A model generated the notes under the pieces. That model did not search any database. It saw only the letters and a program-made list of their open reading frames with translations, and was not told the DNA's origin. From NCBI GenBank assembly GCA_030696315.1, contig JAUYSM010000061.1, positions 1 to 64,000 of the forward strand: a stretch of DNA of 64,000 nucleotides, given 5' to 3'. A program made the position numbers and the translations under genes. Source of the stretch: Pseudohongiella sp. (GTDB lineage Bacteria; Pseudomonadota; Gammaproteobacteria; Pseudomonadales; Pseudohongiellaceae). This document shows, in pieces, positions 3,066 through 10,496 of the stretch; position 1 is the first letter of the stretch; each line of letters starts with the position of its first letter.

Positions 3066-3102
3066 GGGGACGGAGTGATCAATTTTTGATCCCTCCGTCC
3101 CC
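3066..3102. repeat. Palindromic REP-like repeat copy R1
   Basis: ggggacggagtgatcaatttttgatccctccgtcccc; near-perfect dyad; overlaps the rapA 3' end. Confidence 0.9.
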
Positions 3103-5991
3103 ACTGAGTATGACATGAATTGCCATCAGCTCCGGTGTGGCTTGTGCCAGGCACTGGTGCAGATCCATTGTTTGTTCTTTCAGGTAATCGAGTTCTTCCT
3201 GTCGGATATTGGGATTACGCTGTTTTAATGCAAGTAGACGTTTAATTTCCAGTGTTTGTGTGGTGAGCATGGCTTTGCCCGCTTGGTCGGCCGCCTGTTT
3301 GCAGGCTGCGACGGCCATCTTGTCGGCACTGTTGGTCAATTTGAGCAGCAGTTTCTGATGCGTCTGCAGGGCTTCCAGTGCCATGGATTTATCGGGGAAG
3401 CGTAAATGCTGGCGCTGGTTCTCCAGCGACTGTGCCAGCGCGGTCACGTTGTTATTGTGATCCAGCGTCATATTAAAGGTGAAGCCGGTAGCAGGCAGAT
3501 GTTTGGCCAGTTGCAGATGCGCGGGTGCGCTGACTTTCATGCGGTACTGGCATTCAACAATCATGGCGCAGCCGGGAGCCGGCCATTCGGCTTCGGTGCT
3601 GACGCTGGCGCCGGATTTGCTGCGACTGACCGCCAGCTCCGGGTAAAACACACTCATCGAGGCTTTGCCCTGATGGCTGTTGAGCACCAGATCCATGGCG
3701 CCGGTTACCGTGGGATGTTGCCAGGTCAGGTAAGCGCGATCCTCGCGGCGCAGGGCTTGCTCACGTTTGAAGCAGGCTTCAAAGCCTTCGTCCGGCAATC
3801 CGGGGAAGGAGGGCAGCAGCATATCCTGCCCCGGGACAATGCTGATGCTGCCGTCGGAGTTGCGGTCATAAAACACGCTGTAGCTGTCGAGTACGTTCAG
3901 TAACCACTGCTCCGGCGTGTAGTTTTGTTCAAACTCCGCGATGCGTGCCAACAATTGGCCGGCGTCGTGCGCATTAAACGAGTTGCGCTCCAGCAGCTGG
4001 TCGCGACCCTGTTCCAGCTCCAGCTGCAACTGTGCGTTGCGCGCCTGGACGCGGGTGATGAATGAGTGGACCGGGGAGGGGACGGAGGGATCATTTTTTG
4101 ATCCCTCCGTCCCCTGGTTACCCTGGTTATCCAGGTACTCTTCCAGCTCGGTTTTAAACGCTTGCCACAGGCGGAATGCGCCAGGTGCGACGTGCTCAAA
4201 GGCGTTCAGGCCGTGGTGGTACCACTGGAACAGGCGCTCCTGGCGGCTGCCGATCACGTAAGGCACGTGGATCTGCACGTCGTGACGCTGGCCGATGCGG
4301 TCAAGGCGGCCAATACGTTGTTCCAGCAGATCGGGGTTGATAGGCAGATCAAATAGAATAAGGTGGCGACAGAACTGGAAGTTGCGGCCTTCACTGCCGA
4401 TTTCCGAGCACACCAGAATGCTGGCGGCATTTTCCTCGCCGGCAAAATACGCCGCCGCGCGGTCGCGTTCCAACAGGCTCATGTGGCGATGGAACACGCT
4501 GCTGCGCACGCCAACCCTCAAACGCAGGTGTTTCTCCAGCGCAATAGCAAGCGCGTCGTGTGCACAAATCAACAGTGTTTTGCCCTCGCGCTGTTTGCTG
4601 CCCGGCCCGGTGAGCCAGTCTGCCAGCCAGCGCACACGCGGGTCTTCAGACAGCAGGTCGTCGGGTTCTCCGGGGTCGGAGGCGGGGGAGGGGCCGGAGG
4701 GATCATTTTTTGTTCCCTCCGTCCCCTCCCCGGCCACCTCTTCTTCAGCCATCAGCGGCCAAGGCTTGAGCACGCGCTGTGGGAAGCCGGTGAGCTGGCG
4801 GCGGGTATTGCGGAACAGGATGCGGCCAGTGCCGTGCTGATCGAGCAACTCGCGCATCTGCGGGTCATCGTCGGACATGGTTTTGATGCGGGAGGCAATC
4901 TGCTGGTAGTTGGCCTGTTCAGCCACAAACGCAGCAAAATCAGTGAATCGCGCGGGATCCAGCAGGCGCAGCAGGGCAAAGTGGTTTTCCTGACCCAGCT
5001 GTTCTGGCGTCGCGGTTAACAGCAACAGCCCTTTGGTGGCGCCCGCAAGTGTTTCCAGGGTTTTGTAAGCGCTGGTGATTTCCTCGCCTAATTTGCGTGT
5101 GTCTGGCGTGGTCAGCTCGCCCAGTGTGACGTGGTGCGCTTCGTCCACAATACACAGATCCCAGCCTGCGGTCTGCGCAGCCTGCGTCCATTCTGGTTTG
5201 CGGGTAAACAGGCTGAGCGGGCTCAACACCAGTTGGGCTGTGGTAAATGGATTGTCCTCACCACTTTCCTGCAGCGCTTCACAACGCTGCTGATCCAGCA
5301 AGGTAAACGACAGATTAAAACGTCGCAGCATCTCTACCAGCCACTGATGCAACAATGGCTCTGGCACCACAATCAAGATGCGGGTGCTAAGGCCGCTGAC
5401 CAGTTGTTGTTGCAGAATCAGGCCCGCTTCGATGGTTTTGCCCAGTCCGACCTCGTCCGCGAGCATCACGCGAGGGGCGTAGCGGCCCGCGACTTCATTG
5501 GCAATATAAAGCTGATGCGGAATCAATTCGGCGCGCGCACTGCACAGACCCATCAGGCCACTGCGCTCGGCATCGCCCATCAGCTGCAAGGTTTGCTGCT
5601 TGAGGTAAAACCATTGGCAAGGCTCAAACTGCCCGGACAACAGGCGATCCAGCGGGCGATTCATGCTCAGCGTATCCGGTAACAGGCTTTCCGGCAGCGG
5701 ATGGCGTTTGCCCTGATTGTCCTGAGTCTCATAAATAATCAGCCCGGATGGGGTTTGCATCAGATCCAGAATTTCCAGCTCCAGCTCAGCAACCGTGACT
5801 TTATCGCCAGCTTTTAGGACCAAACGGGTCAACGGCGCCTGCTGGCGCGCGTACCGGCGTGTTTCTTCGACGGCCTTAAAATCAATGCTGACGGTTCTGA
5901 AATCCACGTCGGTCACCAGGCCCAGGCCCAGATCCGGTTCACTATCACTTAGCCAGCGCTGGCCGGTTACAAATTCTCGCTGTTGACTCAT
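3079..5991 (-). CDS. rapA: RNA polymerase-associated SNF2-family ATPase RapA
   Basis: N-terminus MSQQREFVTGQRWLSDSEPDLGLG; helicase motifs LADEVGLGKTIEAGLI, VDEAHH, SEIGSEGRNFQF, QRIGRLDRIGQ. Contains palindromic-repeat-derived sequence. Confidence 0.95.
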   Translation of the reverse strand: MSQQREFVTGQRWLSDSEPDLGLGLVTDVDFRTVSIDFKAVEETRRYARQQAPLTRLVLKAGDKVTVAELELEILDLMQTPSGLIIYETQDNQGKRHPLPESLLPDTLSMNRPLDRLLSGQFEPCQWFYLKQQTLQLMGDAERSGLMGLCSARAELIPHQLYIANEVAGRYAPRVMLADEVGLGKTIEAGLILQQQLVSGLSTRILIVVPEPLLHQWLVEMLRRFNLSFTLLDQQRCEALQESGEDNPFTTAQLVLSPLSLFTRKPEWTQAAQTAGWDLCIVDEAHHVTLGELTTPDTRKLGEEITSAYKTLETLAGATKGLLLLTATPEQLGQENHFALLRLLDPARFTDFAAFVAEQANYQQIASRIKTMSDDDPQMRELLDQHGTGRILFRNTRRQLTGFPQRVLKPWPLMAEEEVAGEGTEGTKNDPSGPSPASDPGEPDDLLSEDPRVRWLADWLTGPGSKQREGKTLLICAHDALAIALEKHLRLRVGVRSSVFHRHMSLLERDRAAAYFAGEENAASILVCSEIGSEGRNFQFCRHLILFDLPINPDLLEQRIGRLDRIGQRHDVQIHVPYVIGSRQERLFQWYHHGLNAFEHVAPGAFRLWQAFKTELEEYLDNQGNQGTEGSKNDPSVPSPVHSFITRVQARNAQLQLELEQGRDQLLERNSFNAHDAGQLLARIAEFEQNYTPEQWLLNVLDSYSVFYDRNSDGSISIVPGQDMLLPSFPGLPDEGFEACFKREQALRREDRAYLTWQHPTVTGAMDLVLNSHQGKASMSVFYPELAVSRSKSGASVSTEAEWPAPGCAMIVECQYRMKVSAPAHLQLAKHLPATGFTFNMTLDHNNNVTALAQSLENQRQHLRFPDKSMALEALQTHQKLLLKLTNSADKMAVAACKQAADQAGKAMLTTQTLEIKRLLALKQRNPNIRQEELDYLKEQTMDLHQCLAQATPELMAIHVILSGDGGIKN
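4078..4114. repeat. Palindromic REP-like repeat copy R2 (inside rapA)
   Basis: ggggacggagggatcattttttgatccctccgtcccc; 37 nt. Confidence 0.92.
4690..4726. repeat. Palindromic REP-like repeat copy R3 (inside rapA)
   Basis: ggggccggagggatcattttttgttccctccgtcccc; 37 nt, slightly diverged. Confidence 0.9.
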
Positions 5992-7587: not shown

Positions 7588-7930
7588 GTTTGAGTGTCTT
7601 GCATGGCTTGTTTTTGGGTCATTCGAGCGGTCAATTGTGGCAAAAAAATGGTAAAAACAAGGCGAGAATTCGGGTGAAAGTTGCACCTTGCTACCTTTTG
7701 GGCTAAGGTACGTCCTGTTACTAGTTTAAACCCTGGCTATTTCTGGTGCGCATTCAGCGCCGGTAAAGCTAGTCCCAAGTACCTTTTGGCTGACTGAGCA
7801 GGCTGTTTCATCGCGTGCTTGAACGTCGTCAATGTCAGATGAAACTGATCGAGACGTGTTCTTTTGTGACTGTTGCGCAGCGCTGCGACGGGGGCAAAGG
7901 GTAAATTGGCTGAAAGCAAGAGATAAGACT

Positions 7931-8767
7931 ATGAACGATTTTCTTCGACACCCAAGATTGTCCTGGCTGGCGCGTGGAACGCTGGTGGCGGCCCTTGGCG
8001 CGTTCACCTTCACTGCGTGGGCTCAATACCGACAATCGCCTCAAATCAGTGTGTTACCTGATTTTGTAACAGAGATTGTTGAACAAGAGCAGGCGGTCAG
8101 TGAGCTGCCGGATTTTGAATCTTTTGTAGACACACAGGCTCGTAAAGAAGCATTTTTCAACTTTCTGACGGCCTACGTTGAAAAAGAAAACCAAGGTATT
8201 CTGAGAACCCGTGCGGCACTTGAGCCGATGTGGGAAGTCGCCAGCAGCGGTCAGCGCCTGAGCGACGTTGAGTATCTGACCTTGTTGGACATTGCTGAGC
8301 AATACCGACTTGACGCCGCTGAACTCAGCGAGCGACAAGTGCTTGCCGAATTGATGGAACGTGTTGACATCATCCCGACGTCTCTGGTGCTGGCGCAAGC
8401 AGCCAATGAGTCCGCCTGGGGTATGTCGCGTTTTGCTCGTGAAGGAAACAACATCTTCGGTCAATGGTGTTTTGATGCCGGCTGTGGCCTGGTGCCAGCA
8501 CGCCGTGGTCAAAATGCAACGCATGAAGTGAAAGCATTTGCCTCGATCGAGGAGTCGGTCAATTCCTACTTCCTGAATCTGAATACCAACAGCAACTATC
8601 AGGACATGCGCGAAGCGCGTGCCCAGATGCGCGCCCAGAACCGACCGCTGGATTCACTGGTACTCGCCCGTGGTTTGACGCGCTACTCACAACGCGGCAT
8701 GGCCTACGTCAGCGAACTGCAAGACATCATCCGCGTCAACCGACTCGGTGCGCTCGATCGCTCCTGA
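7931..8767 (+). CDS. Bax-like / FlgJ-type glucosaminidase domain protein
   Basis: N-terminal hydrophobic segment; IIPTSLVLAQAANESAWGMSRFAREGNNIFGQWCF glucosaminidase signature. Start set at ATG 7931. Confidence 0.85.
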   Translation: MNDFLRHPRLSWLARGTLVAALGAFTFTAWAQYRQSPQISVLPDFVTEIVEQEQAVSELPDFESFVDTQARKEAFFNFLTAYVEKENQGILRTRAALEPMWEVASSGQRLSDVEYLTLLDIAEQYRLDAAELSERQVLAELMERVDIIPTSLVLAQAANESAWGMSRFAREGNNIFGQWCFDAGCGLVPARRGQNATHEVKAFASIEESVNSYFLNLNTNSNYQDMREARAQMRAQNRPLDSLVLARGLTRYSQRGMAYVSELQDIIRVNRLGALDRS

Positions 8768-8786: not shown

Positions 8787-8884
8787 GGCCCGTCTCATCC
8801 GGAGACCGGGCAGTTCCTCACAACGACGCCTTCGGCGTCTTTATCGTTGTTCGCTCACTGCCCGGTCTCCGGATGAGACGGGCC
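8787..8884 (-). repeat. Structured inverted-repeat element U1 with conserved core
   Basis: Perfect 28-nt outer arms (8787-8814 / 8857-8884) around a core containing gacgccttcggcgtc. Shares its core with 9040-9123 on the opposite strand. Confidence 0.85.
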
Positions 8885-9039
8885 TCTGGCAACGTGTGTT
8901 CTGAGTCTTCCGCCACAACTCCCTCGCGTCGCAGCACTGCTTTGAGCCCAGTGCGCACTCAATCGAAGCAACTCCCGCGCAATTCAAGGGGAATGCCACC
9001 GGATTCAAGACCGTGTCGTCCCCCGCGCCCCACTGCACA

Positions 9040-9123
9040 GCCCGGTGGGAGGTCAGCGGTGAGCGAGGGACAATAAAGACGCCCAAGGCGTCGTCCCGAG
9101 GAACCGCTGACCTCCCAACGGGC
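9040..9123 (+). repeat. Structured inverted-repeat element U2 with conserved core
   Basis: 21-nt outer arms with one mismatch (9040-9060 / 9103-9123). Core gtgagcga...ataaagacgcccaaggcgtc...gaggaac shared with U1. Confidence 0.85.
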
Positions 9124-9148
9124 GTATCAACAGCGCCAAAACACAAAC

Positions 9149-10288
9149 TCAATCCGCATTCCCCGGCACAGACCGAATCCACAACTTGTTAAACCAATAA
9201 TACCGATTGGTCCCGCGTTTCGGCGCCGTACAGATATACCCATAACGACGCATCTGAAATTCTTCTTCTGCCTGAATGGTAAATCGCACTGCATCACGAT
9301 CCAGCCACTGCAGCGTCAACGGTTTGCCATTGGCATAACAGCCGAGCTGCGACACATTAAAATCACCTGCCAGCTGCAAGGTCACCGGGGGGTTTTTGCT
9401 GTCTGTCACCGGCGAGCGCGGGGAGTGCTCGAGTACCTGGAACGCCAGACTGTCCAGCTTGGTGCGGGCCGAGGCAATATCGGCAAAGGAGGCAGCCAGC
9501 GGATAGCGTGGCAGGGCCGTAAAGTCGGAGTAATAGCCGACCGCTCCGGAGTTCTGTGCGAGCGCCACAAAACCGAGTTCCTCAATCATCGCCATGATGT
9601 CTTCATCAAACTCGCCATAAGGGTAGGCCATGATCTTGTGATCCTGGCCGGTTTCCCGGCGGATATGCTCTTGAGCTTCGAGCAGTTCGGCGCGCAAACG
9701 TGCCAGGCGGTCGGCATTGGTTTCGCCGGGCAGGGCATCCACCATGTGCGGGTGGTTTACCATGTGATTGGCGATGATCACCCCACCTTCGGACATTTCA
9801 CGCACCTGATCCCAGTTCATATACCCACGTTGATTGTCATTAATCGGCTGTGTGGTGGCAAACAGCGTCATGGGGAAACCAAATTCCTTGAGCAGCGGCC
9901 AGCCGGTGTCGTAGATGGATATGTAAGCATCGTCAAAGGTCAGCGCGGCGGTGCGCTCGGGAATCGGCTCTTTGTTTTGCAGTGCCTGAATCAGGCGATC
10001 CAGCGGCCAGACTTCAAAGTTGTTGTCGCGCAGATATTCCATCTGAATGCGCAGTTCGTCTGCGGTCAGACTGGTTGAGCGCGGTGTGGAGTCGGAAACA
10101 TGGTGGTAAATCGTAATGACAGCATGGCCCTCTTGTGTGACCGAGGGCGAATGTGCGATCGAGGGCGAAGGCACGGTTTGCGCCAGCACCGCATGGGTAT
10201 TCAAAATACTCAGGCCGCCAAGCGTGATGGCCAGTTTTATAAAACGCTTCAAAGTGCTGTGTGTTCTCAGGGAAGGTAATAACGCCAT
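9149..10288 (-). CDS. Polysaccharide deacetylase family protein (NodB-type)
   Basis: Signal-peptide-like N-terminus; ITIYHHVSDSTPRSTSLT, ALTFDDAYISIYDTGWPLL, IANHMVNHPHM motifs. Confidence 0.85.
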   Translation of the reverse strand: MALLPSLRTHSTLKRFIKLAITLGGLSILNTHAVLAQTVPSPSIAHSPSVTQEGHAVITIYHHVSDSTPRSTSLTADELRIQMEYLRDNNFEVWPLDRLIQALQNKEPIPERTAALTFDDAYISIYDTGWPLLKEFGFPMTLFATTQPINDNQRGYMNWDQVREMSEGGVIIANHMVNHPHMVDALPGETNADRLARLRAELLEAQEHIRRETGQDHKIMAYPYGEFDEDIMAMIEELGFVALAQNSGAVGYYSDFTALPRYPLAASFADIASARTKLDSLAFQVLEHSPRSPVTDSKNPPVTLQLAGDFNVSQLGCYANGKPLTLQWLDRDAVRFTIQAEEEFQMRRYGYICTAPKRGTNRYYWFNKLWIRSVPGNAD

Positions 10289-10434: not shown

Positions 10435-10496
10435 GGGGACGGAGGGATCATTTTTTGTACAGCGCTCGTTGTACAAAAAATGATCCCTCCGTCCCC
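10435..10496. repeat. Perfect long palindromic repeat copy R6 (rpsB leader)
   Basis: ggggacggagggatcattttttgtac / agcgctcgtt / gtacaaaaaatgatccctccgtcccc: 26-bp perfect arms, 10-nt loop. Confidence 0.95.

Follow-up and report, generated by a model that had tools for sequence, protein, structure and literature searches.

The gap between two convergent genes of Pseudohongiella sp. raises the question of what its two long palindromes, U1 and U2, represent. They lie in the window, a stretch of 64,000 nucleotides from a genome of 3.96 Mb (G000), and stand head to head, 155 bp apart (8884 to 9040), in a gap of 381 bp between facing stop codons, as the original prediction had described. That prediction had offered three readings, namely an undescribed family of structured elements, a BIME-like mobile repeat, or a bidirectional terminator with a conserved fold, and is partly supported by the analysis presented here. 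Both flanking genes are ordinary host genes: a glucosaminidase domain (PF01832) is encoded on the plus strand (7832–8767) and a polysaccharide deacetylase (PF01522) on the minus strand (9149–10288). No sigma-70-like promoter was found in the gap between them.

U1 (class A, 98 nt, 8787–8884) has its GA-rich strand on the minus strand, and its 3′ end lies 20 bp past the stop codon of the ORF at 7832–8767. Its 5′ arm (28 bp, 8857–8884) is the perfect complement of its 3′ arm (8787–8814). Further inward, GAGCGA (8851–8856), the 5′ side of a tandem-G·A internal loop, is placed opposite GAGGA (8815–8819), followed by a variable 5-bp helix formed by ACAAC (8846–8850) and GTTGT (8820–8824), an unpaired bulge, GATAAA (8840–8845; helix and bulge together 8840–8850), and an apical hairpin, GACGCC-GAA-GGCGTC (8825–8839), which on the plus strand is followed by TTTATCGTTG and is terminator-like. 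U2 (class A, 98 nt including 7-nt flanks, 9033–9130) carries the GA-rich strand on the plus strand, and 18 bp separate the end of its matched stretch from the stop codon of the minus-strand ORF at 9149–10288. Its 21-bp 5′ arm (9040–9060) has a single mismatch to the 3′ arm (9103–9123), and between them lie GAGCGA (9061–9066) with its partner GAGGA (9098–9102), the variable helix GGGAC (9067–9071) with GTCCC (9093–9097), the unpaired bulge AATAAA (9072–9077; helix and bulge together 9067–9077) and the apical hairpin GACGCC-CAA-GGCGTC (9078–9092), which is followed on the minus strand by TTTATTGTCC and is likewise terminator-like. The arms are separated by 42 nt in each element. The shared core had thus been predicted correctly to the base, including the difference at three of the five pairs of the variable helix with pairing kept on both sides, and arms that differ in sequence and remain complementary. 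Folding z-scores were −12.6 for U1 and −9.8 for U2, and none of 200 shuffled sequences was equally stable.

Matches to the core pattern with up to three mismatches were found ten times in G000 and not once with a reversed control. Alignment A1, made of 28 copies from seven genomes, in which the GAGCGA of the internal loop is conserved, served as the basis of a covariance model (R1). The search with it, the kind of check that the original prediction had proposed, yielded about 24 copies in G000 and 22–28 in four relatives; the counts in seven Pseudohongiella genomes were 24, 27, 28, 23, 22, 16 and 15, four further genomes of the genus had 9, 4, 3 and 1, and the remaining four had none. Pseudohongiella is an aquatic bacterial genus, and the R1 search of seven other genera of its family returned zero copies. 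A broader covariance model (R2) was built from 134 copies. Outside the genus, searches of 119 genomes of the family, 394 of the order and 369 of the class gave no convincing copy, with one weak match as the exception; the filters of the order and class searches were strict, recovering just about 10 of the 24 copies of G000, so that low-copy presence outside the genus is still possible. An exact class B pattern run over 85,462 genomes matched mainly Pseudohongiella and gammaproteobacterial records, those of the genus including Pseudohongiella MAGs and strain LSUCC0112. Matches elsewhere (Novosphingobium, Elusimicrobia, KSB1 and others) were short, low-scoring and consistent with chance, and the pattern had zero matches in viral contigs. 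The elements match no Rfam family, a permissive scan returning just unrelated ones (microRNA precursors and others) far below gathering scores, and no description of the repeat was found in the open-licence literature. U1 and U2 are members of a previously uncatalogued family of repeats of about 95 bases that is essentially confined to Pseudohongiella; the part of the original prediction that spoke of an undescribed structured family is the one best supported, by the many copies, the strong covariation (see below) and the lack of an Rfam match.

Read along the GA-rich strand, the element consists of a 21-bp arm, GAGCGA opposite GAGGA, the variable 5-bp helix, a one-sided bulge and a GC hairpin of 5–6 bp with a 3-nt loop. 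The GAGCGA/GAGGA module is readable as two tandem G·A pairs around a C–G pair with one bulged G. The bulge is AATAAA in class A and AATCA in class B; the latter class, with its shorter tip (95 nt), was not apparent from the window, nor was the general arm length of about 21 bp, arms reaching up to about 33 bp where the flank pairs too. Watson–Crick pairing at arm positions 2–21 is mostly 90–96% (lowest 83%), falls to 56% at position 22 and is around 50% beyond the 21-bp arm. The arm sequence at positions 15–21 shows little conservation (0.04–0.66 bits per position), whereas the asymmetric tip, with its tandem G·A loop and AATCA/AATAAA bulge, is conserved among copies. An A precedes the stem in 69% and a G follows it in 48%, and there is no tag. 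Diverged copies (e.g., L138, L149 and L163) keep the bulge and have the G·A loop replaced or lost. One copy of G008 (L090:1501–1577) is a minimal relative with GAGCGA/GAGGA and arms, lacking bulge and apical hairpin, and is possibly an ancestral or a decayed form. In a rearranged copy of G001 (L128:6017–6118) the 5′ arm is broken by a duplicate of GTGGCACAAGCCCACA and the 3′ arm is tandemly repeated.

Although the arms differ from copy to copy, they covary strongly. In alignment A3, 95.4% of cells are paired and two-sided changes occur at 31 of 33 pairs; its covariation score of 0.750 exceeds those of shuffled alignments (0.181; relatedness of the rows inflates such shuffle tests) and of slid partners (at most 0.118). 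We compared 36 independent cross-genome pairs, selected for similar arms and possibly containing paralogs: 67 arm pairs had gone from one Watson–Crick pair to another and 84 had changed on one side. In the closest of them changes were mostly one-sided, so that pairing seems to be rebuilt stepwise by ordinary substitution. The arms and the inner helix are held by pairing rather than by sequence, through stepwise and compensatory substitution. One-sided changes that left Watson–Crick pairing gave G·U in 30 cases versus A·C in 11, and non-redundant arms held G·U and A·C at 36:17 as against 21:48 in the adjacent flank (Fisher p 5e-5). Since G·U on one strand is A·C on the other, the G·U excess marks the GA-rich strand as the molecule that needs pairing. 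The arms are apparently under selection for pairing on this strand; the constrained molecule is more likely RNA than single-stranded DNA, a DNA hairpin being a possible fit to the G·U preference as well.

A stop codon lies within 80 bp of 90 of the 122 scorable copies (median distance on the 3′ side, 22 bp), and by the gene calls used for these counts, from a small codon-usage gene finder written for the analysis, 55 copies are in convergent, 59 in codirectional and just 3 of the 122 in divergent context. The neighbouring genes inspected are ordinary ones. A link to a reverse transcriptase was dismissed, since a string near one copy that had been read as RYADD is part of a GGDEF gene. Head-to-head pairs like U1/U2 recur at other loci; the pair in the window is mostly accounted for by a separate copy for each of the two convergent genes. 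A strong strand orientation to genes did not hold up generally. It is clear at the nearest stop codons, where the gene is antisense to the GA-rich strand in 69 copies and sense in 21, and not significant codirectionally (17:10 among non-redundant copies).

The reading we favour, at about even confidence, is that of a new, structure-defined and REP-like family of dispersed extragenic hairpins of mobile origin, whose GA-rich strand would form an RNA hairpin at transcript ends. Read-through from a neighbouring gene or a convergent one would transcribe this strand, and the RNA would fold into a rigid, tip-capped rod of 21 bp that could stop or trim read-through (antisense) RNA or shield RNA from 3′ exonucleases, in line with proposals for REP hairpins (PMC3733652). 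In the opposite direction, transcription of the adjacent gene may also stop at the T-tailed hairpin of the tip. One kind of landing place is the centre of an existing palindrome. The hairpin probably acts at transcript ends, to which the T-tailed tip on the coding strand may add weak intrinsic termination. Several observations weigh on this reading: the gap in the window has no sigma-70-like promoter, the G·U preference would suit a single-stranded DNA hairpin as well, inner modules can be lost, as in the G008 copy, and at codirectional loci the GA-rich strand is antisense more often than sense (39 versus 24 copies), so that much of it may rarely be transcribed.

That the family is of mobile origin follows from the comparison of orthologous regions, where copies are present or absent and element-free targets exist. 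Most intergenic regions of G000 with a copy also carry one in G001, G004, G005, G010 or G014, and class, arm sequence or orientation may differ between them, or either member of a pair may be missing. At the locus of U1 and U2, the convergent genes of G007 and G009, which are distant relatives, are separated by about 4 bp only; REPs are present there in G006 and G013, one element in G001, G010 and G014, and two in G000, G004 and G005. We rejected the idea that the target site itself had supplied the 21-bp arms, the element-free gap being just about 4 bp. In G002 (L164:2120–2500) an element splits a GGGGACGGAG REP palindrome into halves; the orthologous REPs of G006 and G011 are element-free, which suggests that palindrome loops serve as insertion targets. 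In G014 (L151:2920–3210) another element is likewise enclosed by REP halves. Symmetric outer palindromes surround 27 of 82 non-redundant copies (3 expected), often starting about 11–19 nt from the arms; some are REPs, some repeats of the element's own arms and a few inverted copies of an adjacent gene end. Copies have been gained by insertion, the species compared being too diverged to fix boundaries or a target duplication.

The element at L170:5080–5300 (G003) is flanked on each side by part of its own arm sequence together with GTGAGC/AGGAAC, an arrangement that resembles the insertion of one copy into the tip of another that was identical to it. At L111:14440–14850, L044 and L140:2080–2330, part of the neighbouring gene's 3′ coding end recurs in inverted form on the far side of the element; these copies belong to a DAHP-synthase-like gene in G000 and G005, whose element-free relatives have no such copy, and to L140 of G014. 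A weak and eroded candidate, judged by eye only, pairs about 8985–9030 with 9141–9170 around U2 in the window. As a general rule of insertion, inverted copying of the gene end was discarded, with just 3–7 of 61 loci depending on the threshold (0.5–1.8 expected).

Mobility of this kind also speaks for the main rival, a purely selfish element without cellular function, in which the GA-rich strand would be a single-stranded DNA hairpin and the substrate of a putative HUH or other recombinase, its fold kept for mobility as in the ends of IS200/IS605 and in REPs. The expansion of copy number within one clade, the paralogs L142 and L139 of G014 that share arms and flanks, the insertion into a REP loop, the frequent symmetric outer palindromes and the one-sided bulge as a possible strand mark would all fit. 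However, compensatory changes continue at fixed orthologous positions, and selection for mobility alone should not enforce pairing at every locus. Moreover, the flanking genes inspected include no linked transposase, such as the Y1 enzymes that the original prediction had suggested looking for nearby, nor was a conserved cleavage tetranucleotide seen at the element ends. We consider this explanation possible but rather unlikely.

It is doubtful, too, that the elements are primarily intrinsic terminators of the adjacent genes, made by the coding-strand apical hairpin and the T-rich bulge (TTTATT or TGATTGTT) some tens of nucleotides past the stop codon. Like Rho-independent terminators, the elements place a GC-rich hairpin soon after a stop codon, with a tip that is T-tailed on the coding strand; terminator-like sites were called at the tips of both U1 and U2, in the direction that fits the adjacent genes, at least 5 T in 8 positions follow on the coding-side strand in 43 of 60 non-redundant copies (GA-rich strand, 0 of 60), and the 69:21 orientation accords with it. 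Unlike such terminators, however, they have 21-bp arms, neither needed nor explained by termination, and a conserved asymmetric tip, while TGATTGTT, the tail seen most often, makes a weak U-tract, the G·U bias lies on the opposite strand, and the orientation is reversed in about a quarter of copies, with no significant bias at codirectional loci. A canonical terminator formed by the long main stem was rejected, as this stem has no U-tract on either side; the bidirectional terminator of the original prediction is left with weak support, from the small tip hairpin, T-tailed on the complement strand only.

Two further explanations are very improbable. Templated quasi-palindrome correction at replication as the sole keeper of arm complementarity, without selection, would account for whole mid-arm stretches that, at one locus, have diverged among species without loss of pairing, but the stepwise rebuilding of pairing argues against such instant correction, the mostly single-sided changes of the closest pairs stay uncorrected as do the bulge and the G·A mismatches, and the G·U/A·C asymmetry and sharp 21-bp limit are left unexplained. 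A REP/BIME family mobilised by a resident RAYT can be rejected at similar strength: a small Y1 transposase (RAYT, about 240 aa) occurs in 8 of 15 genomes, all of them element-bearing, and is absent from the four that carry no copy, a co-occurrence that may be merely phylogenetic, but it is missing from the assemblies of G004 (22 copies) and G013 (3 copies), and at the four RAYT loci inspected, in four species (L190–L193), the gene is surrounded by another, GTAG-type REP family (GGGGWCGGAG...CTCCGWCCCC) with no match to model R2.

The favoured reading, of a structure-defined hairpin family, also bears comparison with known systems. Integron attC sites have conserved boxes at the stem base (GTTRRRY and its complement) and a variable loop. 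Like them, the elements lie downstream of genes and are imperfect palindromes of conserved structure and variable sequence with one-sided extrahelical bases; unlike attC, their tip is conserved and their base variable, with barely conserved arm positions 15–21 in place of core boxes, and no cassette arrays were seen. REP, BIME and REPIN repeats fall into GTAG- and CGTC-tagged families of 20–40 bp, sequence-defined and with an unpaired tag (PMC3733652). The genomic habit that the original prediction called BIME-like is real, the elements being extragenic, 3′ of convergent or codirectional genes and rare in divergent gaps, with inverted neighbours, past mobility and plausibly transcribed hairpins, but in kind they differ, as they are untagged, two to three times longer (about 95 nt) and built on hypervariable, covarying 21-bp arms. 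Stem-loop (SLS) repeats, for which sequence HMMs yielded 92 families across 40 genomes (PMC2267715), are similarly dispersed, intergenic and of common secondary structure; going by that description, they differ from the present arms, which share structure and not sequence.

More speculatively, and with little confidence, one may picture a mobile element whose recognition depends on shape and hardly at all on sequence: a hairpin of 21 bp, whatever its bases but with a marked tip, would insert into the centres of palindromes (REPs or its own relatives), sometimes leave an inverted copy of the neighbouring gene end, and afterwards be retained by the host, with selection on its pairing, as a hairpin at transcript ends.

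Dispersed stem-loop repeats are already known as a kind (PMC2267715, PMC3733652); what is unusual here is membership by fold and tip, with sequence-free arms of a sharp 21-bp length. Sequence is what usually defines a repeat family in bacteria, but here the common bond is the fold, the arms of paralogs largely losing sequence similarity and yet pairing over 21 bp, which suggests that sequence-based repeat finders will miss families of this type. With more than 130 natural variants it offers a test bed for selection on RNA versus single-stranded DNA in an extragenic repeat, and for the function of such repeats at gene ends.

The window also contains many REPs of the GTAG-type GGGGWCGGAG family, at 3066–3102, 4078–4114, 4672–4726, 6007, 7220 and 10435–10496. 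Its sole Rfam match at the gathering score is a t44 RNA (RF00127; 10499–10590), located upstream of an rpsB-like gene and adjoining a REP half at 10487.
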